Below, one piece after another: positions 6,285 through 49,537 of a DNA stretch of 57,398 bases. How positions within the stretch are numbered: position 1 is the first letter of the stretch; every line of letters starts with the position of its first letter. The stretch is from Bacteroidales bacterium (GTDB taxonomy: Bacteria; Bacteroidota; Bacteroidia; Bacteroidales; F082), in the NCBI GenBank assembly GCA_015489465.1, contig WFZS01000171.1, positions 1 through 57,398 of the forward strand, in the 5' to 3' direction. The position numbers were made by a program, and so were the translations under genes. Below the pieces are notes generated by a model that saw nothing but the letters and a program-made list of their open reading frames with translations, did not search any database and was not told the origin of the DNA.

Positions 6285-7640
6285 CTATTTTTTCAACCAG
6301 TCGTAATGAAATTTACATTTTTTAAAATCGTCGGATATTTTTATATAGGTATTTTTACTTTTTTCGTTAACCCATTTATCAATAATATCCTTTTGTTTTT
6401 TCTGTAATGCCCACTGCTGTATTTGCGGATAATCATCTTTTAAATTGGCAATGTGAGGTTCCGTTTTACGTTTCAAATATAAAATACGGTATGCATCTTT
6501 TTGTTTATCCGTTTTATAAGGAACCGGATTTGATATTTCGCCGGGTTTCAATTTGTCAATTACAAAAGCCACTTGCGGATCTAATTGTTCCGCCTCAAAC
6601 GTAGTGCCTCCGGTGTATGGATTGATAAGATAACCACCGCTTTTTTTGTTGGGGTCGTCAGAGAATTTCTCAACGGCTTTATCAAAAGTTATGGAGTCGT
6701 TACGTATCAACGTTGCTATGCTGTCCAGTTCTTTACGGGCTTTTTCAAGATCTTCGGGAGAAACCTTCGGAACCAGCAATATATGTCTTACATTGATATA
6801 ATCACCTTTTCTTTCGATAAGTTGAATAATATGGTATCCGGCTTCTGTTTCAACAACATCGGAAACCTCTCCTTTTTTAAGTTTGTAAGCAACAGCTTCA
6901 AATTCAGGATAAAGTTGACCTCTGCCGTAAAATCCCAGCTCACCTCCTTTTGCCGCCGACCCCGGATCTTCGGAATATAATATTGCCAGCGTCGAAAAGT
7001 TTTCACCGTTCAAAATTCTTTTACGTAAATCAAGAAGCCGTTCCTTAACCCTTAATTTTTCCTCTATACTTATGGGTGGATTTTTTACTATTTGTTGAAT
7101 TTCGTATTGTGTTTTTATAACAGGCAAACTGTCCTTAGGTATCGATTTATAATAGTCTTTTATTTCCGAAGGTGTTACGGTAACATCTTGGATTATTTTT
7201 TGTTGGACTTGCTGCGCCATAAGTTGCTTTTTGATAACATCAAAAAGTTCCGCTTTTATTTCGGAAAGTTTTTTGTTGTAATACCGTTCTAATTTTTCCT
7301 GCGAACCGAACTGGTTTATGAACATTGCAATACGTCTGTCAAGTTCGGCATCAACCTGCGAATCTTCTATCTGAATACTGTCAACTTCAGCTTGTGCCAC
7401 AAGCAAATTTTGAAATAAAAGATCTTCCAATATTCTGCATTTCATCTGTTCCGGACTACCGAAAGCCTGGTTTTGCAACTTGTAATTCAGATACTGGTTC
7501 TCCACATCCGAAAGCAAGATTATATTTTTACCTACTACGGCTACCACCTTATCGATAACCTTCTTTTCCTGTGCTTTAACGCTAAAGACAAAGGCAAAAA
7601 GAAGTACCGGTAACATTATAAATTTCAATCTGTTAATCAT
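6285..7640 (-). CDS. SurA-like periplasmic peptidyl-prolyl isomerase/chaperone
   Basis: A 451-residue exported protein with a signal peptide (1-23, VKA-Q). The SurA N-terminal helical chaperone domain follows (about 27-165; VVAVVGKNIILLSDVE). Two parvulin domains come next: about 179-277 with SEDPGSAAKGGELGF and GYHIIQL, and about 283-391, which is more divergent but keeps HILL and SDDPNKKSGG. SurA escorts unfolded beta-barrel proteins to the BAM complex. Its start overlaps the end of the upstream SurA-N-like lipoprotein gene by 8 bases, so they are translated together. Length and order fit SurA. Confidence 0.88.
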   Translation of the reverse strand: MINRLKFIMLPVLLFAFVFSVKAQEKKVIDKVVAVVGKNIILLSDVENQYLNYKLQNQAFGSPEQMKCRILEDLLFQNLLVAQAEVDSIQIEDSQVDAELDRRIAMFINQFGSQEKLERYYNKKLSEIKAELFDVIKKQLMAQQVQQKIIQDVTVTPSEIKDYYKSIPKDSLPVIKTQYEIQQIVKNPPISIEEKLRVKERLLDLRKRILNGENFSTLAILYSEDPGSAAKGGELGFYGRGQLYPEFEAVAYKLKKGEVSDVVETEAGYHIIQLIERKGDYINVRHILLVPKVSPEDLEKARKELDSIATLIRNDSITFDKAVEKFSDDPNKKSGGYLINPYTGGTTFEAEQLDPQVAFVIDKLKPGEISNPVPYKTDKQKDAYRILYLKRKTEPHIANLKDDYPQIQQWALQKKQKDIIDKWVNEKSKNTYIKISDDFKKCKFHYDWLKK

Positions 7641-8484
7641 AAGTATAAATTTCTATTTCATTCTTTTTAAGAGCATTCTCGAAAAGTTTTTTCCGGAGCT
7701 CTTTAACAAGGTCAACCTTTCTTTTGTTTATAATAATACTTTTAATGTTATCCTCTTCCAATTCCAACGGTGAATGATCGTTTTTTATTTTGAAATCGAT
7801 AAACTTTACAAAATAAAGCTCTTTTTTGTTTTTAATCTTCACAAATTTATTATTCTTCAAATAAAGTTCCTTGTTGTAAACTTTTATGGGTATATGGTTC
7901 AGCAACTCGTCAAAAGGTATCCATACCGTAGTGTCCAGAAAATAATCTCTAGCATAAATTTCACAATTGGCTTCCAGGGAATCCATCATTACCGAGTCGG
8001 GCAGAGTAAACAATTCAGAAAATTTTTTATCGATTTCCTTGCTGTTTTCCGTAACGATGTACATCACTCTGACAATATTTTTTAACAGGACAAAATCGTT
8101 CAGATGTTCGTTATAATATTTTTCAACTTCTTCAATGCTTACCGTGGTATCGAGGTTTTGTTTTATTATTTCATTTTGGTAAGTATATATTATCAACGAG
8201 TTTTTATATTTTTCCAACTGGTTCTTAAAGTCAAGTTTACGATCATCCAGATTTTCTTCGGCTTTATTAATCAACAGTTTATTTCTTACCCAGTTGTTTA
8301 CATAATTGTTAACCCAGATTATTGAATCCCGGTGTGAAATATTTTCAGGCAACAATCCTTTTATATCCGAATCGTACAATATTTCATCATCAACCCTGGC
8401 TAAAGGAATTCCTTTATCGGGGTCAACCGTTGACCTGCACGAAACTATTAAAAAAAGAACAGTTATGTAAAAAAAATATTTCAT
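7633..8484 (-). CDS. Lipoprotein with SurA-N/PpiC-like chaperone region, no complete parvulin domain
   Basis: A 283-residue protein if started at the ATG at 8484 (the ninth codon of a longer frame). That start gives a clean lipoprotein signal: basic-hydrophobic stretch, then LIVSC with the lipid-bearing Cys. The region after it (PLARVDDEILYDSDIKG) matches the start of SurA/PpiC N-domains. The rest is helical and charged and lacks the isomerase motifs seen in its neighbours. It lies between two parvulin genes and overlaps surA by 8 bases. I infer a membrane-anchored foldase cofactor; this is not shown. Confidence 0.72.
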   Translation of the reverse strand: MKYFFYITVLFLIVSCRSTVDPDKGIPLARVDDEILYDSDIKGLLPENISHRDSIIWVNNYVNNWVRNKLLINKAEENLDDRKLDFKNQLEKYKNSLIIYTYQNEIIKQNLDTTVSIEEVEKYYNEHLNDFVLLKNIVRVMYIVTENSKEIDKKFSELFTLPDSVMMDSLEANCEIYARDYFLDTTVWIPFDELLNHIPIKVYNKELYLKNNKFVKIKNKKELYFVKFIDFKIKNDHSPLELEEDNIKSIIINKRKVDLVKELRKKLFENALKKNEIEIYTYD

Positions 8485-18123: not shown

Positions 18124-20616
18124 ATGAAGGATAATTATTTAAAAAAATTGCTACCGGTAATTGTTGCCGTTTTGGTGTTTTTATCGTTAACATTAGCATA
18201 TTTTTCACCCTTACTTCAAGGTAAAAAACTGAACCAGCACGATATTATTCAGTGGAAAGGAATGTCAAAAGAGATAGTCGATTACAGGGAAAAAACCGGT
18301 GAAGAACCGTTGTGGACAAATTCAATGTTCGGAGGAATGCCCGCATGGCAAATCTCGGTAGTTTACTCCTCGAATCTAATTAAAAAGGTCGATGAAATTT
18401 TAAAACTGGGATTACCAACACCGGCAAACCTTTTCTTCCTTTATTTTTTGGGATTTTTTGTTTTGTTGTTGGTTTTGAGAATAAATCCGTGGGTAAGTCT
18501 TATAGGAGCCATTGCTTACGCTTTCTCAACATACTTTATCATAATTCTGGGAGCCGGGCACAATTCCAAAGCTCATGCCATTGCTTACATGGCACCTGTT
18601 CTGGCCGGAATAATATGGACATACAGGGGAGAACTATGGAAAGGTTCTTTACTTTTTGCCCTGGCTTTGGCACTGGAAATTAATGCCAATCACGTCCAGA
18701 TAACATATTATCTTTTGTTTTTATTGTTGGGCTATATTATTTACCGTTTCATCGAAGATTACAAACAAAAAAGACTCTCGTATTTTTGGAAAGCGTCAGC
18801 CGTACTGTTGTTGGCGGCAATGCTTGCAGCGGCTACCAATATTACCAATCTTTTGGCTACATACCAATATGCCGAACATACCATGCGCGGTAAACCCGAA
18901 TTGAAAAAAGAAAATTCACAAAACCAGTCGGGCGGACTTGATAAAGATTATATAACGGCTTGGAGTTACGGTATAGGCGAAACGTGGTCGTTTCTAATTC
19001 CCAACGCCAAAGGAGGCGGTTCGGGTTATATAGGTAACATTCCCGAGCTTAAAAAAGTAAAACCGGAGTACCGGAAAATAATCTCGCAACAAAATGCATA
19101 CTGGGGCGACCAGCCGTTTACGGCAGGGCCGGTTTACTTAGGAGCCGTAATAATGTTCCTTTTTGTGCTGGGGATGTTTATCGTGAAAGATAAGTTGAAA
19201 TGGGTTCTTTTTGCGGTAACGGTGCTTGTTGTGTTGCTGGCATGGGGCAGGAATTTTATGACGTTTACGGATCTTTTCATAGACTATTTTCCGCTTTACA
19301 ACAAGTTCCGGACAGTGTCGATGATACTTGTGGTTGCGGAGCTAACGATACCGTTGATAGCTTTCATGGCGGTTAACGAAATATTAAAGGATCCCGATAT
19401 AATTAACAGAAACACTAAAGCGTTTTATATTTCCTTCGGTTTAACCGGAGGTATCGCTTTCCTCTTCTGGCTTATGCCCGCAACATTTTTCGACTTTTTA
19501 AGCCGGAATGAGTTACAACAATTTAATATGTTGAAACAATCGGGAAATGCAGCACAAATAGATGATTTTATGAATAATCTTGTGGCGGTAAGGGTTGAAA
19601 TTTTCCGGGCTGATGCTCTTAGAAGCTTTTTATTTGTTGCGGTTACATCAGGGCTTATTTGGTTTTTTGCCAACAGGAAAGTAAACCGGACGCTGTTTTT
19701 GGTAACATTGGCATTTCTTGTTGTTGCCGACCTTTTCCCCGTAAACAAAAGATATGTTAACAACAACGATTTTGTAAGAAAATCAAAAGTTGACAATCCT
19801 TTCCCTAAAACAAAAGCGGACAATTATATTTTAAAAGATAAAAATCCCGATTACAGGGTCCTTGATTTAACAAAAAATATTTTCAACGATGCCAGCGTTT
19901 CGTATTACCACAAAAGTATAGGCGGTTATCACGCTGCGAAACTTCAAAGATACCAGGATCTTATTGATTATCACCTGATGCCTGAAATAGAAAAACTGAA
20001 AAAGACATTGCAAAAGAACCCGGAAGACCTCAATAAAATATTGAAAGGGTTACAGGTTATCGACATGCTTAATACCAAGTACATAATTTACAACCCTAAT
20101 GCTATACCTATACTAAACCCGTATGCTTTCGGTAATGCCTGGTTCGTAAAAGATTACAAGGAAGTGGCAAATGCAAACGAAGAGATTGATAAAATAGGAA
20201 AGGTTGATTTACAACAAACGGCAGTTATCGATAAAAGATTTGATGATGTTATTAAGAATAAAAATATTGAGTTTGATTCTACGGCTTCTATAAAACTGAT
20301 ATCGTATGCACCCAACAAGCTGGATTACGAATACTCGTCAACCGAACCCGGAATGGTTATTTTCTCGGAAATATATTATCCGGAAGGGTGGAATGCATTT
20401 ATTGACGGTAAACCCGCACGATACTTCAGAGCGGATTATGTTTTGCGCGGTTTGATTGTTCCGGCAGGAAAACATAAAATAGAATTCCGTTTTGAACCGA
20501 AAGTTTGGAAATACGGCAACATAATATCGTTTATTTCATCCTTATTAATTTTATTGCTGGTGTTAGGTTTTATAATATTTGAAATAAAAAAATCAAGAGC
20601 AGCCGGTAAAAAATGA
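18124..20616 (+). CDS. YfhO-family polytopic membrane protein (putative GT-C-like glycosyltransferase)
   Basis: An 830-residue protein with about 13 hydrophobic helices in the first two-thirds and a soluble C-terminal region closed by one last helix (about 800-820). Family hallmarks include the LNQHDIIQWKGM segment, the ELWTNSMFGGMPAWQ-like region (LWTNSMFGGMPAWQ), the GHNSKAHA loop and the late YPEGWNAFIDGKPA motif. YfhO proteins in Firmicutes add sugars to lipoteichoic acid or undecaprenyl-linked carriers; the role in Bacteroidota is not settled. It overlaps the next glycosyltransferase gene by 4 bases (ATGA), pointing to a shared surface-glycan task. Confidence 0.85.
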   Translation: MKDNYLKKLLPVIVAVLVFLSLTLAYFSPLLQGKKLNQHDIIQWKGMSKEIVDYREKTGEEPLWTNSMFGGMPAWQISVVYSSNLIKKVDEILKLGLPTPANLFFLYFLGFFVLLLVLRINPWVSLIGAIAYAFSTYFIIILGAGHNSKAHAIAYMAPVLAGIIWTYRGELWKGSLLFALALALEINANHVQITYYLLFLLLGYIIYRFIEDYKQKRLSYFWKASAVLLLAAMLAAATNITNLLATYQYAEHTMRGKPELKKENSQNQSGGLDKDYITAWSYGIGETWSFLIPNAKGGGSGYIGNIPELKKVKPEYRKIISQQNAYWGDQPFTAGPVYLGAVIMFLFVLGMFIVKDKLKWVLFAVTVLVVLLAWGRNFMTFTDLFIDYFPLYNKFRTVSMILVVAELTIPLIAFMAVNEILKDPDIINRNTKAFYISFGLTGGIAFLFWLMPATFFDFLSRNELQQFNMLKQSGNAAQIDDFMNNLVAVRVEIFRADALRSFLFVAVTSGLIWFFANRKVNRTLFLVTLAFLVVADLFPVNKRYVNNNDFVRKSKVDNPFPKTKADNYILKDKNPDYRVLDLTKNIFNDASVSYYHKSIGGYHAAKLQRYQDLIDYHLMPEIEKLKKTLQKNPEDLNKILKGLQVIDMLNTKYIIYNPNAIPILNPYAFGNAWFVKDYKEVANANEEIDKIGKVDLQQTAVIDKRFDDVIKNKNIEFDSTASIKLISYAPNKLDYEYSSTEPGMVIFSEIYYPEGWNAFIDGKPARYFRADYVLRGLIVPAGKHKIEFRFEPKVWKYGNIISFISSLLILLLVLGFIIFEIKKSRAAGKK

Positions 20617-21938
20617 AAAAGGTTTTAATAATAACCTATTATTGGCCTCCCAATGGAGGTTCCGGTGTACAACGATGGCTTAAATTCAGTAAATATTTAA
20701 GGGATTTCGGTTGGGAACCCGTCATTTACACACCGGAAAACCCTGAGATTGTGCACTTTGACGATTCTCTCGAAAAGGACATTAAGGAGAAAACAACGGT
20801 TGTTAAAACCAAAATATGGGAACCTTTTAGCATTTACAAGGCAATTACCGGGAAAAAGAAAAATGATACTTTAGGAGCGGGGTTTATGTCTGAAAAAAAA
20901 GGTATCTCCTTTACCGAAAAACTTTCCGTTTGGATTCGCAGTAATTTTTTTATTCCTGACGCACGTGTTTTTTGGATAAAGCCATCAGTAAAGTACTTAA
21001 CAAATTATTTAACGGAAAACCCTGTTGATATTATTGTTTCAACGGGTCCTCCGCATAGTATGCATTTAATAGCACTCGGATTAAAAAAGAAACTGCAAAT
21101 TCCTTGGGTTGCCGATTTTAGAGACCCTTGGACAAATATTGACTTTTACGATAAACTGAAATTAACAAAACGGGCCGATAAAAAGCACCGTACACTTGAA
21201 AAAAATGTTTTAAGAAGTGCGGATAAAGTTGTTTCGGTAAGCTGGAACTGGGCTAAAGACTATATAAAAAAAGGAGCGAAAGATGTAGAGGTAATAACCA
21301 ACGGTTACGACCCTGATGACTTTCCCGAAATTAAAAATAACCGGGAAAAAGACGGCTTTATTATCTGTCAGTTCGGATCTGTAAATAAGGATAGAAATCA
21401 TGATGTTTTTTGGAAGGCAATAAGTGATTTGATTAATAAAAATAACGAGGTTAAGGAAAAATTAAAAATATTGTTTATCGGAAGTATTGATTTTTCAGTT
21501 ACCGAATCTATTTCAAAATATAATTTGGAATCACTTGTGGAAAAGATCGGTTATTTACCACATAAAGAGGCACTTGAAACGGCTGCCAAAGCCGATGTTT
21601 TATATTTACCTTTAAACAACACTCCTAATGTCTCGGGAATTATACCCGGAAAAGTATTTGAATATTTGGCTTTGAAAAAACCGATATTGAGCATTGGAGA
21701 TGTTAATGGTGATACGGCCAAGATTCTTAAAGAAACACAAAGCGGTGTTATGTTTGATTTTAACAATAAAAACGGAATAGAGAAGTGGTTATTGGATGCG
21801 TTTCACAATAAAAAAAACCTTGTAACCCATCCTTCAAGCAATATTGAAAAATATTCACGTATAGCATTGACAAAACAAATGGCTTCATTGTTTAACAAAA
21901 TTATAAATGAAAAACCGAATTCAGGTACATTGTTTTAA
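20613..21938 (+). CDS. GT4-type glycosyltransferase
   Basis: A 441-residue cytosolic or membrane-associated GT-B enzyme. The N-terminus has the typical TYYWPPNGGSGVQRW segment (acceptor side), an ADFRDPWT motif at mid-protein, and a C-terminal Rossmann domain with VITNGYD, a Gly-rich linker and SGIIPGKVFEYLALKKPIL, the nucleotide-sugar-binding stretch with the Glu of the EX7E pattern. The sugar donor is unknown. It begins 4 bases inside the end of the YfhO gene, so translation is coupled. Confidence 0.85.
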   Translation: MKKVLIITYYWPPNGGSGVQRWLKFSKYLRDFGWEPVIYTPENPEIVHFDDSLEKDIKEKTTVVKTKIWEPFSIYKAITGKKKNDTLGAGFMSEKKGISFTEKLSVWIRSNFFIPDARVFWIKPSVKYLTNYLTENPVDIIVSTGPPHSMHLIALGLKKKLQIPWVADFRDPWTNIDFYDKLKLTKRADKKHRTLEKNVLRSADKVVSVSWNWAKDYIKKGAKDVEVITNGYDPDDFPEIKNNREKDGFIICQFGSVNKDRNHDVFWKAISDLINKNNEVKEKLKILFIGSIDFSVTESISKYNLESLVEKIGYLPHKEALETAAKADVLYLPLNNTPNVSGIIPGKVFEYLALKKPILSIGDVNGDTAKILKETQSGVMFDFNNKNGIEKWLLDAFHNKKNLVTHPSSNIEKYSRIALTKQMASLFNKIINEKPNSGTLF

Positions 21939-21961
21939 TTACGGGAATTAATTACAAATGA

Positions 21962-21969
21962 TAAATTTG
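21962..21969 (+). promoter_or_regulatory. -7 promoter element (TAAATTTG) before the acyltransferase gene
   Basis: An exact TAnnTTTG match, 25 bases before the ATG at 21995, lying in the 56-base gap after the GT4 gene. It would allow separate transcription of the acyltransferase. Confidence 0.35.
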
Positions 21970-21994
21970 TTAGAATTTTAGAAAATAAGACAAT

Positions 21995-22624
21995 ATGGGA
22001 ATTATTCAATATATATGGAAAATGTATTTAAGGGTTTTAAACCCGACATGTAAAATAAGAGCGTCGTCGTTATCCAGAAATGTACATCTTGAAAAAGGAG
22101 TAACCATTGAACAAGGTAGTCATATACAATGTTCATACATTGGTAAATATACATACATTAATAAATACTGTTTAATAGATAAAAGTACCGAATCAATAGG
22201 ACGTTTCTGTTCAATAGCTTATAATGTTAGAATCGGTCTCGGTTCGCATCCTACAAATTGGGTAAGCACTCACCCTTTTGCTTATGACAAAAAATACGGG
22301 TTTACAAGTAATACGGGTTTTGCTTCCGGTAAAAAAACAGTTGTAGGTAACGATGTTTGGATTGGAGCAAACGCCACAATACTTGCAGGTATTAAAATAG
22401 GTGACGGAGCAATTATAGGTGCCCATTCATTAGTAACAAAAGATGTTGAACCGTATTCGATAGTTGTCGGCGTACCGGCAAAAGTAATTCGCTACCGGTT
22501 TGACAGGGATACAATTCAAAAACTATTGGAAATAAAATGGTGGAACTGGGAAGATGATCTTTTAAGGAAAAAAATCGGTTCATTTGCAAACATTAATAAT
22601 TTTTTAGAAAACGCAAAAGATTAA
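21995..22624 (+). CDS. Hexapeptide-repeat acyltransferase (CatB/LbH type)
   Basis: A 209-residue left-handed beta-helix enzyme. Repeats of the [LIV]-G-x4 type run from about residue 25 to 165. They include IGRFCSIAYNVRIG, a catalytic-type His in the SHPTNWVSTHPF loop, VGNDVWIGANATIL, and the closing IVVGVPAKVIR. This is the xenobiotic/sugar O-acetyltransferase type, often found in O-antigen and capsule loci, where it acetylates a sugar hydroxyl or amine with acetyl-CoA. Its place next to glycosyltransferases fits that. The acceptor is unknown. Confidence 0.88.
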   Translation: MGIIQYIWKMYLRVLNPTCKIRASSLSRNVHLEKGVTIEQGSHIQCSYIGKYTYINKYCLIDKSTESIGRFCSIAYNVRIGLGSHPTNWVSTHPFAYDKKYGFTSNTGFASGKKTVVGNDVWIGANATILAGIKIGDGAIIGAHSLVTKDVEPYSIVVGVPAKVIRYRFDRDTIQKLLEIKWWNWEDDLLRKKIGSFANINNFLENAKD

Positions 22625-22701: not shown

Positions 22702-24183
22702 TTATTCCCCTTTTAACCGTTTAACCGACTTTTTAATGGAATCATTTACATCTTCCGAAATCTTTAGAAAATAAACCGCCGGAACAAATATTACCGTGAT
22801 AACGGAACTTCTTACTATAATATCAACGATAAAATTATCGAATTGCGGAATTAATGTGGAAATATACCAGGTAACAAACCCCGTAATTATTAACAATACA
22901 TGTTTGATATTATAAGGTTGGAATCCGTATTTACGGTAAAGAAATACAAACTTGGAACCACTGTAAAGTAATTTTGATATAAAAGTTGCAAGTGCTGCAC
23001 CTATTATTCCGTAAACCGGAATGAACATCAGATTAGTGACAACTACTATTAATGCAAAAATCAGGAGCAAATATGAGAGCCATTTATATTTGGGCGAGTT
23101 GACAATTATATGCGAACTCGTTCCTGAAAAAACATCGGCTAAATTCGCAAGTCCTATAAATAAAATAACGTATTTACCACTTTCAAACTTATCTCCTATA
23201 ACATAAAATACGTTATTGATATTACCCCAAATACCCGCTAAAATATAAACCCCCGCAATACCGAGCGTAAGAGTACTCTTTTTGTAAATATCGAAAATAT
23301 TTTTCTTGTCATTGTTTTTCCAGGAGTCAGAGATAACTACCGAACTTATTTTCCCCATAGTTCGTAAAGGAATTAAAATCAATGTTCCGAAAAAGAAAGT
23401 AATGGCATATATACCCGCATTGCTTAAACCCAAGTAATGGTCAACCATTATCAAGTCGATATTTTGCACTAACACTCCCGAATAACTAGCCACAATACCG
23501 AAAAACGCAACACTTCCCATTTCTTTAACAAGCTCTTTATTAAGATAGCTGAAATCGGGTTTCAAAAAAAGGACTTTATCCATTAAAAGATCAATAAACA
23601 TTAACACGGCCGGAGCAGCTAAAGAAAATAAATATAGAATTACGAAAACTTTGAAATCTATTAATTTGAAATAGAATAAAGCTATGGCAATTATAGCCAA
23701 TATTCGTTGCACCACCTCTTTGTAAACGGTACCTTTAACGGCATTATATAAAACCCTGTAGTAAGTATCGAAAATACCGTACAAAAGCGTGAAAAACATT
23801 AAAGGTATCACATAATAGTAATATGACACGAAAAGCGGCGATTTGTGTTTGGCATTTTCAATTATATAATCGTGAAATCCCAAATATAAAGCCGTTGAAA
23901 ACAAAAAGCCGGTGAAAGCTACAATAAGTGCTATTCCCAAAAAACCGTGATGTTTTGCAGCGTGATCCCTGAAATGCGGAAATAATTTAACGGTAACATT
24001 ATTAAAACCCAAAACTGCAAATTGTGCCAACAACACCGAATATGAGACAAGAACACGGGTTAACCCTATCTCCTCCGTTGAAAAAATTCGCGGAAATAAT
24101 ATCCCCGAAATCAAAAAACCCAAGAATACTCCCGCATAAGAGTATATAGCTCCGGATATCGATTGTTTTTTTATTATTCCCAA
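22702..24183 (-). CDS. Polysaccharide flippase (Wzx/MATE-like, oligosaccharide repeat-unit exporter)
   Basis: A 493-residue protein with about 14 hydrophobic helices. The N-terminus has the family start KKQSISGAIYSYAGVFLGF and the EEIGLTRVL turn, given here in part; the C-terminal half has the repeated helix pair typical of the polysaccharide transport family. It should flip lipid-linked glycan units across the inner membrane. The start is TTG at 24183; an in-frame stop lies upstream and no ATG fits. It faces the cytidylyltransferase gene across a 103-base divergent promoter region. Confidence 0.85.
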   Translation of the reverse strand: MGIIKKQSISGAIYSYAGVFLGFLISGILFPRIFSTEEIGLTRVLVSYSVLLAQFAVLGFNNVTVKLFPHFRDHAAKHHGFLGIALIVAFTGFLFSTALYLGFHDYIIENAKHKSPLFVSYYYYVIPLMFFTLLYGIFDTYYRVLYNAVKGTVYKEVVQRILAIIAIALFYFKLIDFKVFVILYLFSLAAPAVLMFIDLLMDKVLFLKPDFSYLNKELVKEMGSVAFFGIVASYSGVLVQNIDLIMVDHYLGLSNAGIYAITFFFGTLILIPLRTMGKISSVVISDSWKNNDKKNIFDIYKKSTLTLGIAGVYILAGIWGNINNVFYVIGDKFESGKYVILFIGLANLADVFSGTSSHIIVNSPKYKWLSYLLLIFALIVVVTNLMFIPVYGIIGAALATFISKLLYSGSKFVFLYRKYGFQPYNIKHVLLIITGFVTWYISTLIPQFDNFIVDIIVRSSVITVIFVPAVYFLKISEDVNDSIKKSVKRLKGE

Positions 24184-24286: not shown

Positions 24287-25054
24287 ATGGATACAAAAAC
24301 GGGAATAATAATACAGGCACGATATTCTTCAACAAGATTACCCGGAAAACTTTTTATGCCTTTTTACAAAGAAAAAAGAATGATAGACCTGTTTTTGGAA
24401 AATATTGCGGATGATGTAAACAACCGTTATGATATTATCCTTGCTACGTCGGTTAACAAAAATGATGATGTTTTTACCGGTGTTGCAAAAAAGCACGGAA
24501 TAAAACTTTTCAGGGGTAGTGAAAACGATGTTCTCGACAGGATGATTTCGGCAGCAAAAACTAATGGAATAAGCACAATTATAAGAGTTTGTGCCGATAA
24601 CCCTGTTTATGATATTAATGGTACTTTGTCACTTTTGGAAAGTCATAAAAAAGGTGGTAACGACTACACATCTTTCAGCATGGATGAGGGATTGCCTTCA
24701 ATAAAATCACATATAGGTTTGTGGGGCGAAATTGTGGAGTTAAGCGCATTGGAAAAAGCTTTTTCGTTAACGGACGAAAAATTTTATCATGAGCACGTTA
24801 CTAATTACATTTACGGAAATCCGGATAAGTTTAAAATCGAATTGCACAAAGCACCTTATAACTTGTACAAAAGAAAAGAGTTAAGATTGACCGTTGACGA
24901 TATTGTCGATTTTGAGTTGATGAAAAATATCTACAAAACATACGTTGAAAACCGGGGTGAAAAAGTGGATATTTTAAAAATGATCGAATTAATCGATAAA
25001 AACGATAATTTCAAACCGGTTATGAAAGAGCAGATAACAAAATATAAGAAATAA
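24287..25054 (+). CDS. SpsF/CMP-sugar-type cytidylyltransferase
   Basis: A 255-residue nucleotidyltransferase of the CMP-sugar synthetase/SpsF family. It opens with IIIQARYSSTRLPGKL (8-23), where the Arg/Ser/Lys residues bind CTP. It continues with FRGSENDVLDR, VCADNPVYD (metal-binding Asp) and RLTVDD. It should activate a sugar acid, probably a nonulosonate, with CTP. It is 4 bases ahead of the NeuB-type gene, and the two are surely co-transcribed. Family assignment is firm; the sugar is inferred from its neighbours. Confidence 0.87.
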   Translation: MDTKTGIIIQARYSSTRLPGKLFMPFYKEKRMIDLFLENIADDVNNRYDIILATSVNKNDDVFTGVAKKHGIKLFRGSENDVLDRMISAAKTNGISTIIRVCADNPVYDINGTLSLLESHKKGGNDYTSFSMDEGLPSIKSHIGLWGEIVELSALEKAFSLTDEKFYHEHVTNYIYGNPDKFKIELHKAPYNLYKRKELRLTVDDIVDFELMKNIYKTYVENRGEKVDILKMIELIDKNDNFKPVMKEQITKYKK

Positions 25055-25058
25055 GAAG

Positions 25059-26099
25059 ATGGACGAGACTTACATAATTGGAGAAATAGGTCAAAATCAT
25101 AACGGTGACGTAAACATTGCCAAAAAGCTGGTAGATATTGTTGCCGAACCTGTTGTCGATGAGCTTTTCGGGAATGAGTTAAAACCTATGAATGCAGTTA
25201 AGCTTACAAAAAGGGACTTAAACGAAGAACTTTCTTTATCGGCAATGAAAAAGCCGTATATAAACAAACATTCTTTCGGAAAGACTTACGGAGAGCATCG
25301 TGCTTTTCTTGAATTGAGTGATGAAGAGCATTTTGAAGTCTATAAATACGCAAAAAGCAAAGGGCTTGAATTTGTGGATACATTATGTGCCGTAGGGTGT
25401 CTTTCCATTTTTAAATATTTTGAACCCGATAAATTAAAAGTTGCTTCACGCGACCTTACCAACCTCCCTTTGCTGGCTGCACTTGCCGAAACAAAAGTTC
25501 CTATTATTTTATCGACCGGTATGGGCGGGAAAGAGGAACTGGACAAAGCTTTGGATGTAATCACGAAATACCACTCCGACATTACGATTTTGCATTGTTT
25601 ATCCCAATACCCGTCAGAATATAAAAATATAAATCTAAATACGATTCCATATCTTATTGAAAATTACCCCGATTATACCATAGGTTATTCCGACCATTCC
25701 ATAGGCATTATGATTCCCGTTGCAGCTGTGGCGCTGGGCGCCAAGGTTATAGAAAAGCATATTACTTTGGACAGAAATATGAAAGGTACCGACCATGCCG
25801 GGTCATTAGCACCCGACGGAATAAGAAGAATGGTAAGGGATATAAGAAATTTGGAAGCGGCAATGGGGGTTAAGGATATGTTTATCAGCGACTCGATAAA
25901 GGATACAAGAACAAAACTCGAAAGATCTATTGCCACCAAACGGGTTATTAAGAAGGGTGAAACTATTACTTTAAAAGATATACATTTACTAAGTCCGGGT
26001 GACGGATTTAAATGGTTTGAAAAAGATAAGGTTGTAGGCAAAATTGCGACAACCGATATTCCCAAAGATGAAATTATTTATAAAAACATGATTGGATAA
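25059..26099 (+). CDS. NeuB-family sialic-acid/nonulosonate synthase, divergent
   Basis: A 346-residue aldol-condensing enzyme: a NeuB barrel (about 1-275) and a C-terminal SAF/antifreeze-like domain (about 284-346). Seen motifs are EIGQNHNGD (8-16), STGMGG, YSDHSIG, IEKHITLDR and GTDHAGSLAP. NeuB enzymes join phosphoenolpyruvate to a 6-carbon sugar or its phosphate. Two usual motifs differ: the VKFQT stretch reads AVKLTKRDL, preceded by an insertion, and KIASGE reads KVASRDL. This suggests a subfamily with another substrate. Its stop overlaps the start of the phosphatase by one base (TAATG). Confidence 0.87.
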   Translation: MDETYIIGEIGQNHNGDVNIAKKLVDIVAEPVVDELFGNELKPMNAVKLTKRDLNEELSLSAMKKPYINKHSFGKTYGEHRAFLELSDEEHFEVYKYAKSKGLEFVDTLCAVGCLSIFKYFEPDKLKVASRDLTNLPLLAALAETKVPIILSTGMGGKEELDKALDVITKYHSDITILHCLSQYPSEYKNINLNTIPYLIENYPDYTIGYSDHSIGIMIPVAAVALGAKVIEKHITLDRNMKGTDHAGSLAPDGIRRMVRDIRNLEAAMGVKDMFISDSIKDTRTKLERSIATKRVIKKGETITLKDIHLLSPGDGFKWFEKDKVVGKIATTDIPKDEIIYKNMIG

Positions 26100-26602
26100 T
26101 GAACATCAAACTTGTAATAACGGATATTGACGGTGTTTGGACTGACGGCGGAATGTATTATGATGAAACCGGTAACGAATTGAAAAAGTTTAACACATCG
26201 GATAGTGCCGGTGTTATCTTTTTAAGGGATGCCGGTAAAGAAATAGCCGTAATAACGGGAGAAAACACCGTAATAGTTGAAAACAGAACAAAAAAGTTGA
26301 AAATCGAAAATGTTTTTTCAGGTGTTAAAGACAAATTGCAAAAGGCAAAAGAGTTGTGTGAAAAATTGAATATTTCCTTACAGGAGGAGGTTGCTTACAT
26401 CGGTGACGATATTAATGATATAAATCTTTTAAAGGCGGTTAAATTCAGCGGCGCTCCCGCAAATGCCCCCGAATACATAAAAGATCTGGTAACGGTAAAA
26501 TTGAAAAAAAAGGGTGGTGACGGAGCATTTAGAGAGTTTGCAGAAGAATTGTTAAAAGCGGAAAATAAATTTAACGGGATTCTTTCCCGTTACGGTTTAT
26601 AA
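26099..26602 (+). CDS. KdsC-type HAD phosphatase
   Basis: A 167-residue cap-less HAD enzyme of the KdsC (C0) class. The nucleophile motif is DIDGVWTDG (Asp9, Asp11), followed by ITGENT (motif II), a Lys in GVKDK (motif III) and GDDINDINLL (motif IV, Asp103/104/107). KdsC removes phosphate from KDO-8-phosphate; relatives in Bacteroides act on KDN-9-phosphate and lie next to a NeuB-type synthase, as here. I infer a nonulosonate-phosphate substrate. Its 3' end overlaps the end of the opposing gene by 32 bases. Confidence 0.88.
   Translation: MNIKLVITDIDGVWTDGGMYYDETGNELKKFNTSDSAGVIFLRDAGKEIAVITGENTVIVENRTKKLKIENVFSGVKDKLQKAKELCEKLNISLQEEVAYIGDDINDINLLKAVKFSGAPANAPEYIKDLVTVKLKKKGGDGAFREFAEELLKAENKFNGILSRYGL
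26571..26602. other. Convergent gene overlap containing a hairpin
   Basis: The last 32 bases of the phosphatase gene and of the opposing glycosyltransferase-like gene are shared. An inverted repeat AACGGGA/TCCCGTT (26573-26579 and 26585-26591, loop of 5) lies inside the overlap. It has only weak T-rich tails, so it may be a modest bidirectional terminator that is also coding on both strands. Confidence 0.55.
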
Positions 26603-28385
26603 CATTTAAAACCCTTTGTGATGTTTTGCCGTCTATTTTATAAGCAAAATCATTTATAAATTTCTTATATGCCTTTTCGTTTATACCTGTTTTTTGCAGT
26701 AGCAGATCTTCTACAATTTCAGAAAGTTCTTCATCATTTGTTACTTGAAAAGCTACTCCCGATTTTTTATAATTTTGAATATCTTGCTTCAAAGGGTCAA
26801 CAATAATCAAAGGTTTTTTAAAATAAACCGCTTCGGTACCAACGGTTGAAAAACTTGTTATAACCATCGAACATTTTGAAAGTAACAAATAGAGATCTTC
26901 CGAATAGACGATAATGTAATTTTTTAATCCCGAATTTTCAACTATCGACTCGTAATACGGTATGTCATTTTTTTCGGCGGGGTGTAATTTAATCACCAAT
27001 AACAAATCATTTCTTTTGGCAAAAGCTGAAAATACCGTCCCGGTAACCGACTTTCTAAGTACGGCATCACGTTGTGGTTGTGTAGCAAATAAAGCATAAG
27101 GCCGATTGAACAATGAAATGTCCGATTTTATCAATTTCGGTATGATGTCTGTCCTTATTTGTCCCGTAATTATAATCGAACCTTCATCATAATTACCTTT
27201 TTCCGTTAATATTTTCTTCCAATAATTTCCCCAAGCCAAAGTAAAATCCGTAGTAATATTTCTTTTGATATCGTTTTTAGTAAACATATATGCCGGGTGC
27301 AATTCGTTGATGCTTCCGTGCTGGATGCCAAAAGTTTTTATTCCGTAAAACTTTGCGGCATCCAAAACACTTTTAATTCGCGGACTGTTTTCGTCAATTG
27401 TTGTTACCGTTTCTATTTTATGTGATTCGAAAAACTTTTTAAATGCAAAATATTTGAAAAAATAAATAAAAGAATTCTTTGAATAATTATCGAAATAGTG
27501 AAATATTAATTTTTCATAATCGGTCATTTCAGTCTTTGAAACCTCTTTCTTTCTGCTATTTAACAGTTTTACCAAATATCCGGTTCTCTTGCGCACACCT
27601 GAATTTAAAAGACCCGCTAACAAAATATTTTCTATATAAATTCTGTTTTTAGTTTTAAAAAGGTAACTTTTAAAATTAAACTTATAATCCGATTTTTTTT
27701 GAGGAAAATCCACGTCGTCCAAAATAAAAAAATTATTATCCAACCTTTTGAATAAGTAAGCCAGATTGTAATTGTCATAAACGGGTTTAAGAGTGTCTAT
27801 GTCCAATATCTTTTGTTTAACAACGTGGTCTATTACAATATTCTTTTTGTTTTTTATTTTCAATAAAAGAAAAGTGCCTAAAAGCACCCTGATTTTGAAA
27901 AACACAAAATATTTAAATAATTGAAAATAATTATAACCCGTTTTTTCTTTTTGCGGCAATACAAAAACTATCTTTTTACCGTTGACAAAATTTTTTAAAA
28001 GTTCATCCTGACCGTAAAAGATAACTTTATCATATTGTTTTAATATGTTTTCAACGGCTTTTATCTCGTAAAGTTTATTTCTTGCTGCAAAATAAACTCT
28101 GAATTTATTATAATGCCATATACTTACTTTTTCAAAGGTAAACAACTCCGTAAGCGACTTTCCCTCAACTTCTTTTTCACCGAAATCCAAAATTGCCGTC
28201 ATCATGCTCTTATTAATACGGCTTTTTTCACTATCGGAAATTGAAAAAGGTAAAACGGTTTTGTTTTTTATACCGGATAGCCGGATATGGGGAGCGACAA
28301 ACACCTTAACGTTTTCATCCGTTATATTGTTTAAACCGGCAAGTTCTTTTTTTGTAAGCTTTCTGTTTATTACAATGGCTTTCAC
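26571..28385 (-). CDS. Capsule-type GT-B glycosyltransferase-like protein
   Basis: A 604-residue protein. The N-terminal half (about 1-330) is Lys/Phe/Tyr-rich and not recognisable. The C-terminal half (about 340-600) has features of capsule polysaccharide/CDP-glycerol transferase-like GT-B domains: GIQHGSINELHP, a TDFTLAWGNYW segment, ITGQIRTD, VIKLHP and a late SSFSTVGTEA-like stretch (ITSFSTVGTEAVYFKKPLI) that would bind nucleotide-sugar. Given the nonulosonate genes opposite, it may transfer that sugar. The start is GTG at 28385; an ATG just upstream is out of frame. It follows the gpsA gene by 50 bases. Confidence 0.6.
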   Translation of the reverse strand: MKAIVINRKLTKKELAGLNNITDENVKVFVAPHIRLSGIKNKTVLPFSISDSEKSRINKSMMTAILDFGEKEVEGKSLTELFTFEKVSIWHYNKFRVYFAARNKLYEIKAVENILKQYDKVIFYGQDELLKNFVNGKKIVFVLPQKEKTGYNYFQLFKYFVFFKIRVLLGTFLLLKIKNKKNIVIDHVVKQKILDIDTLKPVYDNYNLAYLFKRLDNNFFILDDVDFPQKKSDYKFNFKSYLFKTKNRIYIENILLAGLLNSGVRKRTGYLVKLLNSRKKEVSKTEMTDYEKLIFHYFDNYSKNSFIYFFKYFAFKKFFESHKIETVTTIDENSPRIKSVLDAAKFYGIKTFGIQHGSINELHPAYMFTKNDIKRNITTDFTLAWGNYWKKILTEKGNYDEGSIIITGQIRTDIIPKLIKSDISLFNRPYALFATQPQRDAVLRKSVTGTVFSAFAKRNDLLLVIKLHPAEKNDIPYYESIVENSGLKNYIIVYSEDLYLLLSKCSMVITSFSTVGTEAVYFKKPLIIVDPLKQDIQNYKKSGVAFQVTNDEELSEIVEDLLLQKTGINEKAYKKFINDFAYKIDGKTSQRVLNVINRNGKESR

Positions 28386-33220: not shown

Positions 33221-36200
33221 ATGAGATTTATTACACGTCATTTTTTTTTATTTGTTTTTTTAATTTTACCGGGCGTTTCTTCCCTGTTTTCGCAATCCTT
33301 GTCAAAACAGGATGCAGCCAAGATGCCTCCCGAAGTCTTCTTTAATAAAATTACGGAACAACTTACAGCGGGTGTATCCAAGTCAACAAAAAAAGAAATT
33401 GAAAAAACCATCGGTCTGCTTTATGCCGAATGGTTTGATGCAGGCGTGTCAAAATATCAAAAAGATGCTATAATAAACCTTTCGCTAAAGATAAACGATA
33501 AATTTTCAAGTCCCGACAGAAGACTTTTGGAATATTTCCATTTACTTGATCTGATGTGGGACGACGGAATCAATCCTTTTAACTTTCTGAAATGGCATGA
33601 GTATGCAAACTCATTGCTCGATAACAACTCTACGGTTATCAAGTATAACGACTTTATAAAATATTCAAAAGGTTTTTTTAAAAAAGGTGCTATAAGTGAG
33701 GTAAATAAAACTTACTCCTGGTATTACAGAGGTACCGATTATTCCTTTTATTACGATACCTCATTCAAAATAAAGTTCAAAAAAATCAATCTTGTTTGCC
33801 GCTCTAAAAAAGACAGCTCGGTAATTAACAACACCCGAGGAACTTTTGATTATAATACCAAAACATGGAGTGGTGACTGGGGAACTTTAAGATGGGACAG
33901 GTTCGGGAAGAATACCGGCGACAGTTCATATGCGGTTTTTGATAAATACAACCTGAATTTAAAACAAAACGTCATAACCATTGATTCCGCAAGACTATAT
34001 TACAAACGTTTTTTCGATTATCCTTTGTTGGGGCTTTTAAAAGACAGGGTTTCGGCAAGTCCGCCACACGCAAATACACCGTATCCGTTTTTTAAGATAT
34101 ATCAAAAATCCTTTGACCTGAGTAAAGTATATTCGGTTTTCAAACTCGACAGTAAACTAGAGTTAAGGGGTCTTAACTTGTACGCCATAGGAGAAAACGG
34201 TAAAAAACCTGTTGCCAGAATTTATAAAAACGACTCCATTTATGCGGTGATAAAATCGGATATTTTCGTGCTTTACAGAAATAAAGTGGAATCGCCCAAT
34301 GTGGAGTTCAGTTTTCATTTTGCCAAAGATTCCATTTACCATCCTAATTTAAGATTCATGTATTTATCCCGTAAAAACGTGGTTATTTTGTTCGGGTTAA
34401 ACACTAAAACCAACGAGATAATACCTTTTTCCGATTCTTATCATAAAATGGATTTATATGTTCCCGTTTTTTATTGGGACCTCGATAAAGATTACGTCGA
34501 TTTTCAAAAGTTCAAACAACTCAGCGAAGGGTATAAAGCTTCATTCGAATCGTTTAACTATTTTTCATTGGCCGAATATTACAGTCTGCAGGTTACCGAC
34601 CAAAGAAATCCTCTGTATTTAATACGTGATTATCTGAAAAAATATGACGTATATGACAGTATTATCGATTTAGAAACATTTTCGAGATTTTTAAGAAAAC
34701 CCCGGTGGGAAGTGGCGGCATTTTTGACCGATTTGTCAACAAAAGGATTTGTATTATATAACCCTACAACAAAAACGGCTAAAATAGGAAACAAACTTTT
34801 TCATTATATCAGGGCAAAACAAAAGCTTGCCGATTACGATGCAATGAATGTTACTTCAAAAGTTAAAAAGGGCCCCAATGCAAAATTCAATTTCAAAGAT
34901 TACAGCATCAACATTTACGGAATACCCCAATTAACATTAAGTGATTCACAAGCCGTTTATCTTTATCCCAAAAAACACACCATTGCTGTAACAAAAAACC
35001 GCGACTTCAATTTTGACGGCTCCATACAGGTAGGGTTGCTTAACTTTTATGTTAAAAACACAAACTTTGTTTACGACAGTTTTATGCTGCACATGAATTA
35101 CATAGATTCAATGGCATTTTACACGTTGGAACGCGACACCACAAAAGCCAACGGCTATCGTTTAAACAAAGTTAAAAATACCATTACGGGGATGGTTGGC
35201 GACCTTTACATCGATGAACCCGGAAACAAATCCGGAACATTCAGAATACCTAAATATCCGATTTTCGCGAATAAGGGTATAGGCTATGTTAATTTTGACA
35301 GCTCATACGGCGAAGACAGCACTTTACAGAAAAAAATATATTATCAGGTTGACCCTTTTGTTTTCGATAGCGTATCACACTTTATTACCAACGGGATTTC
35401 ATTTAACGGCACCCTTGCAGCCGAAGGGGTAATAGATAATGAAATTAAAGAACCTCTTACAATTATGCCCGACAATACTTTGGGGTTCGTTCATAATATC
35501 CCCGATACGGGTTATTCGGTTTACGGACATAAAGGGAGAATTTTCGGGAAAATAAGTGTCGATAATAATAACTTGATAGGTTACGGTAAGTTGGATTTGC
35601 CAACTTTGACATTGACATCCGACAGCTTGCTTTTTAAACCCGATTCCCTGTCGGGAATAGCATACAATTTCGCCGTAAAAACAGATAACGGATTTGATTT
35701 CCCCGTTGCCAACGGTGATTCGTTAAAAGCCGTATGGCTGACAAAAGACACTAACCTGGTGAAAATTTCCACTTTGGATTCCCTTAAACTTATTAATGTT
35801 TTCGGCAATTCGAAATTATACGGAACACTTCTTATATCGCCCGGAATAATGAAAGGATTCGGGACATTTAAAAATGATAAAGCGGATGTCAGTTCGAAAA
35901 ACATGAGATTTACTTCCACCAGTGTATCAGCCGATTCCGCAGATTTTACGTTTTATGACGAAGAACATAAAAATAAAATTTTCGTTTCCAGAGGTTATAA
36001 TGTCTTTGTTGATTTTGAAAAACAACGGGGTATATTCAAAAATCTTAACAAAAACGAAAACACTTTTATCGAATTTCCTTACAACAGATATGTCTCAACA
36101 TTAAACAAGCTGGAATGGATAATGGATGAGAAAAAACTAATCTTAACTTCCGAAATAGACAGCTCCGTTTACAATAAATATATGTTTCTGCCCGAAAAAG

Positions 36201-37771
36201 ATATCATCAACAAAAAATTTGACATAGGTGAATTCATAAGCGTTGATTCCGCACAGGATTCGTTAAGATTTTATGCAAAAAAAGGAATTTACGATTACGA
36301 TAATTACACAATATCCGCAAAAGGAGTACGCTTTATAAATGTTGCCAACGGCGTGGTGTTTACTAATGACGGAAACGTAACGGTAAGGGGTAAAGCCGAT
36401 ATGGATTCGTTATTCAAAACCCGTATTATAGCCGACACCTCGACAAAATATCACACGTTTTACGATGCCGACATTAAAATTTTATCGAGAAATTATTTCT
36501 CGGGAAGCGGCTACATCGATTACATAGATATTAATAAACGTGCACAGCAAATTTATCTTTCCGAACTGGATGTAGATAGTTTAGGTAGAATTGAAGGTGA
36601 AGGTAAAGTTAACGAAGACGATTATTTCTTTTTAAATCCTTTGTATTTTTTCAAAGGTAATGTCAAGGTGTTTTCAAATAAAAAGAATTATAAATTCAAA
36701 GGTGCATTCAGAATTAACGAAGAATGTGTAAACACCGAGGACAATTGGGTAGCTTTTGAAAAATTTATCGACCCGGATAGTATTGTTTTTAAGATTGACG
36801 AAAACACAATAACACCCGACAGCCTCCCTGTCAGATTCGGGCTTGCTTATTCATATGTTAATCATAAGTTTTACCCCTTAATACTGCAACCGTTACAATA
36901 TGAAAAAGACAATCTGTGCATAAACAGTTACGGAAGAATATTTTTCGATACGATTAACAATTCCATCCGTGTAGGACCCGAAAAAAGGTTAAAAGGTGAT
37001 GTCGATGCAAAAGGCAACTATATAAAACTTGACGAGAAAAAATGTATAATGACGGGTGAAGGTCTTTTCGATTTCGGAACAAAATTCAATAAAATCAAGT
37101 TTTTGCCAGGTGGTAAGTTTAAACACCTATCCGTAATTGATTCCACATATTTTAACACGGCGTTTTTATTGGATTTTTATTTTGACGAAGATCTTTTGAA
37201 ATCTTTTAGAGATACGCTGTTAACCGCAAAAGGTAAACCCGTTGATTTGGAAAAAGGTCCGATAAAAATATTGTTTAAAGAATTATCCGACAACGAAACC
37301 GCTACGCGATTATTGGTTGAATCGAGCTTGTACGGTAAAATGGAAAATGTTCCGAATTCAATAAAAAGTAAAATTATTTTCAGTGATGTAAACTTCAGGT
37401 GGGATGTTTACAGTAAATCGTACATTTCGGAAGGACCCATAGGGATTGGATATATAAACGATGTGTCCATAAATAAATATTTTGACGGAAATATTCAAAT
37501 TCGCATAAGCAGAACGGGTGTCGAAATGAATATTTATTTAAAGCCTGCCGACGACAAATGGTATTTCTTTAGTTACAGCTACGGTATTATGCAAATATTA
37601 TCATCAAACGAAGAGTTTAATACCATCTTAACGGAAATAAAAGAAAGTAAAAGGGTTCTTAATCCCGACGACGAGAATAAAAGGTATGAATATATAATCT
37701 CGACGGAAGAGAAAAAAGATGATTTCTTAAGAAGAATTGAAAGAATTAACAGAGTTAAAAATGGATTATAA
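33221..37771 (+). CDS. Giant exported protein of unknown function with OstA-like repeats
   Basis: A 1516-residue protein with a signal peptide (about 1-24, SLFS-Q) and no membrane helix or sorting tail that I can see. Most is predicted beta-rich, in short units such as AKKGIYDYDNYTISAKGV (about 1019-1036) and KGDVDAKGNYIKLDEKK, which resemble OstA/LptA-type stacked strands. An all-helical, winged-helix-like insert sits at about 480-530 (TFSRFLRKPRWEVAAFL..). The family is unknown to me. It is flanked by prmA (14 bases) and the aminotransferase gene (11-base overlap), so it is in an operon. A periplasmic scaffold or lipid/LPS-carrying role is only a guess. Confidence 0.7.
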   Translation: MRFITRHFFLFVFLILPGVSSLFSQSLSKQDAAKMPPEVFFNKITEQLTAGVSKSTKKEIEKTIGLLYAEWFDAGVSKYQKDAIINLSLKINDKFSSPDRRLLEYFHLLDLMWDDGINPFNFLKWHEYANSLLDNNSTVIKYNDFIKYSKGFFKKGAISEVNKTYSWYYRGTDYSFYYDTSFKIKFKKINLVCRSKKDSSVINNTRGTFDYNTKTWSGDWGTLRWDRFGKNTGDSSYAVFDKYNLNLKQNVITIDSARLYYKRFFDYPLLGLLKDRVSASPPHANTPYPFFKIYQKSFDLSKVYSVFKLDSKLELRGLNLYAIGENGKKPVARIYKNDSIYAVIKSDIFVLYRNKVESPNVEFSFHFAKDSIYHPNLRFMYLSRKNVVILFGLNTKTNEIIPFSDSYHKMDLYVPVFYWDLDKDYVDFQKFKQLSEGYKASFESFNYFSLAEYYSLQVTDQRNPLYLIRDYLKKYDVYDSIIDLETFSRFLRKPRWEVAAFLTDLSTKGFVLYNPTTKTAKIGNKLFHYIRAKQKLADYDAMNVTSKVKKGPNAKFNFKDYSINIYGIPQLTLSDSQAVYLYPKKHTIAVTKNRDFNFDGSIQVGLLNFYVKNTNFVYDSFMLHMNYIDSMAFYTLERDTTKANGYRLNKVKNTITGMVGDLYIDEPGNKSGTFRIPKYPIFANKGIGYVNFDSSYGEDSTLQKKIYYQVDPFVFDSVSHFITNGISFNGTLAAEGVIDNEIKEPLTIMPDNTLGFVHNIPDTGYSVYGHKGRIFGKISVDNNNLIGYGKLDLPTLTLTSDSLLFKPDSLSGIAYNFAVKTDNGFDFPVANGDSLKAVWLTKDTNLVKISTLDSLKLINVFGNSKLYGTLLISPGIMKGFGTFKNDKADVSSKNMRFTSTSVSADSADFTFYDEEHKNKIFVSRGYNVFVDFEKQRGIFKNLNKNENTFIEFPYNRYVSTLNKLEWIMDEKKLILTSEIDSSVYNKYMFLPEKDIINKKFDIGEFISVDSAQDSLRFYAKKGIYDYDNYTISAKGVRFINVANGVVFTNDGNVTVRGKADMDSLFKTRIIADTSTKYHTFYDADIKILSRNYFSGSGYIDYIDINKRAQQIYLSELDVDSLGRIEGEGKVNEDDYFFLNPLYFFKGNVKVFSNKKNYKFKGAFRINEECVNTEDNWVAFEKFIDPDSIVFKIDENTITPDSLPVRFGLAYSYVNHKFYPLILQPLQYEKDNLCINSYGRIFFDTINNSIRVGPEKRLKGDVDAKGNYIKLDEKKCIMTGEGLFDFGTKFNKIKFLPGGKFKHLSVIDSTYFNTAFLLDFYFDEDLLKSFRDTLLTAKGKPVDLEKGPIKILFKELSDNETATRLLVESSLYGKMENVPNSIKSKIIFSDVNFRWDVYSKSYISEGPIGIGYINDVSINKYFDGNIQIRISRTGVEMNIYLKPADDKWYFFSYSYGIMQILSSNEEFNTILTEIKESKRVLNPDDENKRYEYIISTEEKKDDFLRRIERINRVKNGL

Positions 37772-49387: not shown

Positions 49388-49537
49388 GATTGCCGGGGTT
49401 TGTTTTTTAAAGATTATACTGATGTAAATATATAAATTGAATTGCATTAATAAAACATTTTTAGCCGGTATGTTTATAATTTATAAAGGGTAAAAAAACC
49501 GGATAAGGCAAAATTCAGAATCAGGAAATTTGAAACA

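Follow-up and report, generated by a model that had tools for sequence, protein, structure and literature searches.

The window analysed here is contig WFZS01000171.1 of assembly GCA_015489465.1, a stretch of 57,398 nt from a Bacteroidales bacterium (GTDB family F082). It contains a cassette of three genes encoding a cytidylyltransferase, a NeuB-family synthase and a C0-type HAD phosphatase. With a probability of about 85%, this cassette makes and activates 2-keto-3-deoxy-D-glycero-D-galacto-nononic acid (KDN), a nine-carbon, sialic-acid-like sugar, from mannose-6-phosphate (Man-6-P), for a surface glycan exported by Wzx. In the proposed pathway, the synthase would join Man-6-P and phosphoenolpyruvate (PEP) into KDN-9-phosphate (KDN-9-P), the phosphatase would release KDN, and the cytidylyltransferase would convert it to cytidine monophosphate (CMP)-KDN, to be placed on the Wzx-exported glycan, probably by the GT-B enzyme of 604 aa encoded by the convergent gene. 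What the analysis establishes is the gene content, the family and the clade, the conservation of catalytic positions and of gene order, and the content of the genome; substrate, product, acceptor and transferase are inferred. The cassette is an ordinary KDN cassette of an already known type, and the claim of a different hexose, made in the initial annotation, is unsupported.

The tight plus-strand order of the three genes, as described there, was confirmed from the open reading frames and Pfam matches: a gap of 4 bases separates the first two genes, and the last two overlap by 1 base in TAATG (Table 1). The first protein belongs to the CTP_transf_3 family and is linked to NeuB, and is thus predicted to be the CMP-KDN synthetase. 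The only solved structure that it matched is 6oew.

The phosphatase and the synthases that accompany it

The pathway can be named from the phosphatase, which scores 236 bits with NF058599, the equivalog for KDN-9-P phosphatases, above the cut-off of 180, and shares 58% identity with BT1713 of Bacteroides thetaiotaomicron. The identity was measured on the chain of PDB 3e81, which together with its relatives is the best structural match and is taken here as BT1713. In B. thetaiotaomicron, KDN is reportedly made by the synthase BT1714 and the phosphatase BT1713, a pathway said to have been described by Wang and colleagues in 2008 (as cited in PMC6200933). Glu55 of the window phosphatase, in the TGE motif, aligns with the Glu changed in PDB 4hgq, presumably Glu56 of BT1713. 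It is kept in all eight aligned phosphatase rows and is absent from the second KdsC-family phosphatase of the genome (contig C50). Counting the window's own, 11 of the 395 phylum-sample genomes pass the NF058599 cut-off.

The synthase had been called divergent because of an insertion, AVKLTKRDL and VASRDL, and all three are indeed there. In an alignment, eight of eight close relatives show the insert. For comparison we took 19 NeuBs, namely the 18 best-scoring others with a locus in the phylum sample (L018–L035) and L129 from the search of relatives described below. All 19 have the short spacing without the insert, none has the SFGxTYGxHR-type loop or VASRDL, and 17 carry PSGE or ASGE. The synthase thus does differ from common NeuBs.

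The picture changes when synthases are sampled through the phosphatase. An alignment of eight phosphatases led by the BT1713 stretch was scanned over genome contigs, and 519 stretches encoding relatives of the phosphatase were found, of which the best 80 were kept. As these are the loci nearest BT1713, the counts show what accompanies a BT1713-type phosphatase, not the frequency of the cassette. NeuB lies at most 3 kb upstream of the phosphatase in 79 loci (L081 shows none), and in 68 of the 80 this NeuB is immediately preceded by the cytidylyltransferase. Motifs were counted in 76 full-length NeuBs, three of less than 300 aa at or near contig ends (L084, L111, L126) being left out. The insert spacing was found in 75 of the 76 and the loop [SA][FW]GxTYGxH[RK] likewise in 75, with 74 having both; VASRDL is present in 68, and VASRDV, VASRDM or VASRDI in seven more. 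The exceptions are L093, with a NANS-like NeuB that has no insert, and L099, which has no loop.

The first-ranked locus, L049, comes from a Bacteroides metagenome-assembled genome (MAG) and encodes a phosphatase 99% identical to BT1713. Its genes stand in the order cytidylyltransferase, NeuB, phosphatase, and its NeuB, 61% identical to that of the window, has the insert, SFGRTYGEHR and VASRDL. Since the insert and the loop occur together in 74 of the 76 paired NeuBs, this one among them, they are hallmarks of the family and not oddities, and the notion of a divergence peculiar to the window gene does not hold. Compared with the B. thetaiotaomicron pathway as represented by this near-identical locus, the gene order, the insert and the loops are the same; the sequences and the flanking genes differ, and no mechanistic difference was seen.

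The substrate is suggested by characterised enzymes: the KDN-9-P synthases of B. thetaiotaomicron and of Prymnesium parvum use Man-6-P, with a Km of BT1714 for this sugar tabulated as 1.4 mM (PMC6200933, in excerpt). According to the same excerpt, the P. parvum Kdn-9-P synthetase works from Man-6-P and PEP via KDN-9-P, and the B. thetaiotaomicron phosphatase can act on what it makes. This enzyme is eukaryotic, and is likened to the window synthase by the predicted reaction, not by sequence.

For the tree, 62 rows were chosen from 111 NeuB sequences plus references, and ten were dropped, leaving 52; a 65% fill rule removed the insert columns. The window NeuB, L049 and 30 other insert-bearing rows form one clade of 32 rows with support 100/99, and the PSGE-type NeuBs stand apart from it. 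The nearest rows to the window NeuB are L122, L036 and L124. Fusions of a cytidylyltransferase to NeuB (L044–L046), which have VASRDL and a GxTYGEHR loop and no insert, join the insert clade at 100/96. The joins of L093 with NANS and of SiaC with SpsE were flagged as long-branch and not used. The initial annotation had itself counted placement in a characterised clade as evidence against its reading, and the synthase does fall into such a clade, with the reservation that the characterised member is represented by the near-identical Bacteroides locus L049, not by BT1714. Together, the phosphatase equivalog, L049, the paired NeuBs and the clade give good support to the earlier suggestion, modelled on B. 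thetaiotaomicron, of a KDN-like product that arises via a 9-phosphate.

NeuBs at least 60% identical to that of the window were found in nine of the 395 phylum-sample genomes, the window's own included. In L037 (6841–8514) and L038 (9307–10983), a very divergent second NeuB-like domain fused to a cytidylyltransferase replaces the separate cytidylyltransferase directly upstream of the insert-clade NeuB (Pfam for L037). A hexapeptide-repeat acyltransferase (Pfam checked for L058), possibly a KDN O-acetyltransferase, stands between NeuB and the phosphatase in eight loci: L058, L065, L095, L100, L119, L120, L121 and L128. Finally, a DUF4910/DUF2172/HTH_47 protein (Pfam) recurs near the cassette in 19 of 91 loci, for instance at 292–1581 of L040.

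The active site and the choice of hexose

The window NeuB has both the TIM barrel and the SAF domain, and its AlphaFold2 model (22 rows) has a pLDDT of 94. Foldseek of the model returned NeuB structures first, with a TM of 0.76 to meningococcal NeuB. In the model, the insert is a hairpin of strands 32–34 and 39–41, situated between the helix 18–29 and the strand 46–51. In a TIM barrel, the segments that lead from a helix to the next strand face away from the active site; the insert, joining helix 1 to strand 2, is therefore predicted to sit at the non-catalytic end and is unlikely to select the hexose.

Of the 13 contact residues listed for meningococcal NeuB (PMC6795526, in excerpt), we mapped 12 onto the window NeuB, leaving out Phe112. 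Seven are kept in the window NeuB (Glu25, Thr110, Lys129, Tyr186, Ser213, His215 and Glu234), and five, all on the sugar side, are changed: Gln55 to Thr50, Asn74 to Ser72, Asn184 to Ser182, Phe288 to Lys286 and Arg314 to Ser312. Among further meningococcal residues, the window NeuB retains Lys53, Ser132, Ser154, His236 and Asp247, whereas Asp132 stands in place of Glu134 and Arg131 in place of the Gly before it.

These replacements speak for an alternative in which another hexose-6-phosphate takes the place of Man-6-P as the substrate, yielding an undescribed nonulosonate; altered loops had been taken as a hint of it. However, the L049 NeuB has the same replacements, and the four that were counted are common to 30–32 of the 32 clade rows: Lys286 and the Ser at the Arg314 position are found in all 32, and the Gln55 position is occupied by Thr in 30 rows and by Gln in two. 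The predicted position of the insert speaks against a role in sugar choice, and the partner phosphatase belongs to the KDN-9-P equivalog. The features being common to the family, we reject the divergent active site and the new hexose as an improbable reading.

One of the changes fits KDN. Arg314, in the antifreeze-like domain, helps to position the N-acetyl group of N-acetylmannosamine (ManNAc) in meningococcal NeuB (PMC6795526, in excerpt), hence its loss fits a sugar without this group. The Neisseria meningitidis NeuB/SiaC (1xuu) and the PSGE-type NeuBs of the phylum share with the window synthase the fold and most PEP and metal residues, but they have no insert and no GKTYGEHR loop, and they have Arg314.

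Genome content and the remaining routes

The genome (2.74 Mb, 98% complete) contains a single NeuB and two loci of type-I phosphomannose isomerase over the cut-off. NanE was not found in it, nor was NeuC over the cut-off of 236 bits, the best NeuC-like matches scoring 84 and 53 bits. Thus Man-6-P should be available, and there is no evident source of ManNAc-6-phosphate among the routes tested. The earlier remark that no epimerase for sialic, legionaminic or pseudaminic acid is present holds at genome level for NanE and for NeuC over the cut-off; the enzymes of the legionaminic and pseudaminic routes were not searched for.

A route to N-acetylneuraminic acid (Neu5Ac) via ManNAc-6-phosphate, like that of human NANS, is suggested by the SFGKTYGEHR loop, common to the window synthase and NANS; this is taken as a lead only. 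NANS presumably also shares the wider loop PY..H[SA][FW]GKTYGEH, Lys at the Phe288 position and the absence of Arg at the Arg314 position. The NANS sequence used has no insert, and the tree sets it apart from the insert clade, on a long branch whose exact place is unsure. NANS makes both Neu5Ac-9-phosphate and KDN-9-P. Km values for both sugars are given in PMC6200933 (in excerpt). The Neu5Ac route is rejected nonetheless, given the absence of NanE and of NeuC over the cut-off from an almost complete genome; further, the synthase scores 272 bits with NeuB_NnaB (TIGR03569), below the cut-off of 400, and has Ser in place of Arg314. We consider it still less probable than a new hexose.

Least probable of all is a spare pathway of 3-deoxy-D-manno-oct-2-ulosonic acid (Kdo), with the phosphatase serving Kdo-8-phosphate. 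It is true that the phosphatase also scores above the cut-off of 107 bits with the broad KdsC/YrbI subfamily model (148 bits). However, its partner is NeuB and not KdsA, and the genome has, on the separate contig C130, a KdsB equivalog of 235 bits (cut-off 155) and, on C50, another phosphatase of the KdsC family, with 131 bits in the broad model; this route is therefore rejected. The window phosphatase fails the KdsC equivalog (138 bits, cut-off 208), but so does that on C50 (126 bits), which scores 106 bits with the KDN model, below its cut-off of 180. The 262-aa gene beside the C50 phosphatase does not encode KdsA, and no search aimed at KdsA was made.

Several observations weigh against the assignment of KDN made from Man-6-P. 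The synthase passes no NCBIfam equivalog (with PseI, TIGR03586, it scores 206 bits, cut-off 340), so the substrate assignment rests on the partner and the clade. The PDB record of 3e81, taken here as BT1713, is labelled acylneuraminate cytidylyltransferase. In all comparisons L049, with its near-identical phosphatase, stands in for the BT1714 record; when BT1714 was sought across 119 genomes of the L049 genus, the best match, L049's own genome aside, was 69%. An identity of 61% to the L049 NeuB is not enough on its own to settle the hexose. Neither Ser at the Arg314 position nor Lys286 is confined to the clade: three of the 20 other rows have the former and six the latter. Another kind of NeuB can likewise yield KDN, as in Serratia marcescens, whose NeuB has an extra domain and whose strains produce KDN and Neu5Ac in a ratio of about 20:1 (PMC9000132, in excerpt).

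Nor is the pairing of phosphatase and synthase strict. In L093 a BT1713-type phosphatase is paired with a NeuB free of the insert. Conversely, among the nine insert-clade genomes of the phylum sample, an over-cut-off phosphatase is situated near NeuB in five, and four have none beside it. In one of these four, L043, a HAD_2-type phosphatase (7514–8179) lies between NeuB and the cytidylyltransferase, and is likely a functional replacement of the BT1713 type. In the other three (L039, L041, L042) no phosphatase is present in the stretch examined, and matches of 172–175 bits, against the cut-off of 180, are found elsewhere in the genomes. As a separate observation on L093 (5861–7380), its NANS-like NeuB has KIASPFV in place of KVASRDL, and the route there may lead through Neu5Ac-9-phosphate or another 9-phosphate.

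The glycan locus and a candidate transferase

The features of the locus are given in Table 1. The cassette had been described as lying amid minus-strand glycan genes; this is true of wzx and the gene of the 604-aa glycosyltransferase, but yfhO, the GT4 gene and a hexapeptide transferase gene, upstream of the cassette (18124–22624), are on the plus strand.

Table 1. The cassette, sites within its synthase and neighbouring genes in the window
Feature	Coordinates	Strand	Basis or remark
YfhO family membrane protein	18124..20616	+	PF09586
GT4-type glycosyltransferase adjoining YfhO	20613..21938	+	Pfam
Wzx-like polysaccharide flippase	22702..24183	-	PF01943
CTP_transf_3 (SpsF-like) cytidylyltransferase, predicted CMP-KDN synthetase, 255 aa	24287..25054	+	PF02348, 77 bits
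NeuB-family synthase, predicted KDN-9-P synthase, 346 aa	25059..26099	+	PF03102, 226 bits; SAF (PF08666), 40 bits
Stretch holding the 11-residue insert (about residues 31-45), predicted to form a beta-hairpin that links helix 1 and strand 2	25149..25193	+	alignments, AlphaFold2
KLTKRD, end of strand 2; Lys48 corresponds to Lys53 of meningococcal NeuB, Thr50 replaces Gln55	25200..25217	+	alignment
KPYINKHSFGKTYGEHR loop following strand 2, regarded as of the 9-phosphate-synthase type	25251..25301	+	loop pattern
VASRDL; in meningococcal NeuB, Ser132 is aligned with Ser130 and Glu134 with Asp132	25440..25457	+	alignment
C0-type HAD phosphatase, predicted KDN-9-P phosphatase, 167 aa	26099..26602	+	HAD Pfam models; NF058599
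604-aa GT-B-like protein	26571..28385	-	overlaps the phosphatase end by 32 bases

In relatives, NeuB was searched for at E of at most 1e-60. At this threshold a NeuB of the window type was not found in four genomes of the same genus and 32 of the same family, several of them incomplete, and 24 genomes of the same order yielded one match, the PSGE-type L129 with 42% identity. The nadC gene of the window is closest to that of genomes of its own genus, with matches of 70 and 69% in two of the four congeners and none in the other two. Among nine stretches around nadC from relatives, L178 and L181 show much of the locus, and the others mainly nadC and brkB. L178, from one of the 32 same-family genomes with no NeuB match, combines nadC, brkB, wzx, gpdh, GT4 and yfhO in a single stretch, where no match to the cassette was found; given the kinship of nadC and this sharing of genes, contamination of the contig is rejected. 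Where the window has the KDN cassette, L178 carries, between wzx and gpdh, another glycosyltransferase and a polysaccharide pyruvyl transferase, whereas L181 has GT2 and an FkbM-type methyltransferase beside wzx. As other glycan genes are found there, the cassette seems to occupy, as an accessory, a variable slot of the wzx/yfhO glycan locus. Outside the family, yfhO homologues are present in 19 and GT4 in 15 of 91 other loci, with many related Bacteroidales MAGs among them.

The transferase may be sought next to the cassette. In the Prolixibacteraceae loci L122 and L123, wzx, the cytidylyltransferase, NeuB and the phosphatase are followed by a convergent gene for a 602-aa protein, 38% identical to the 604-aa protein of the window. 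The latter matches the BFO_1060-type glycosyltransferase domain NF046086 in its C-terminal part only and below the cut-off (74 bits, cut-off 200); the match of the C-terminal part of the 602-aa protein is also below the cut-off. Over curated cut-offs, the 604-aa protein has just a weak Pfam match to capsule synthesis and none in NCBIfam. We found no paper on BFO_1060, and the name does not occur in the main text of PMC7014623. Both proteins have an HP motif in the C-terminal part, and such a motif was reported in bacterial sialyltransferases and in nonulosonate transferases of Tannerella forsythia (PMC6388019, in excerpt). We infer that the 604-aa protein is the best candidate for the CMP-KDN transferase. 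Far more tentative is the idea that it founds a family of CMP-KDN transferases and that KDN caps the Wzx/YfhO-associated surface glycan in the variable slot; this we consider doubtful.

Elsewhere in the window, a 1516-aa protein (33221–37771) has no Pfam match. Two proteins of 946 aa (46607–49447 and 51403–54243) have C-terminal type IX secretion sorting domains, which point to Bacteroidota; one has papain-like and lectin-like domains, and the other, beta-propeller and PKD matches.

The analysis provides a usable rule: NeuBs that accompany a KDN-9-P phosphatase can be recognised by the 11-residue hairpin that separates helix 1 from strand 2, by the SFGxTYGEHR loop and by VASRD. The NCBIfam models of NeuB and PseI score such KDN-type NeuBs below the cut-off. 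In granular sludge, in which KDN has been measured, database annotation could not distinguish synthases of Neu5Ac from those of KDN (PMC10483923, in excerpt). The distribution of the loci, judged by record titles, suggests that the capacity to make KDN is scattered across the Bacteroidota and their near relatives, from gut to environmental lineages.

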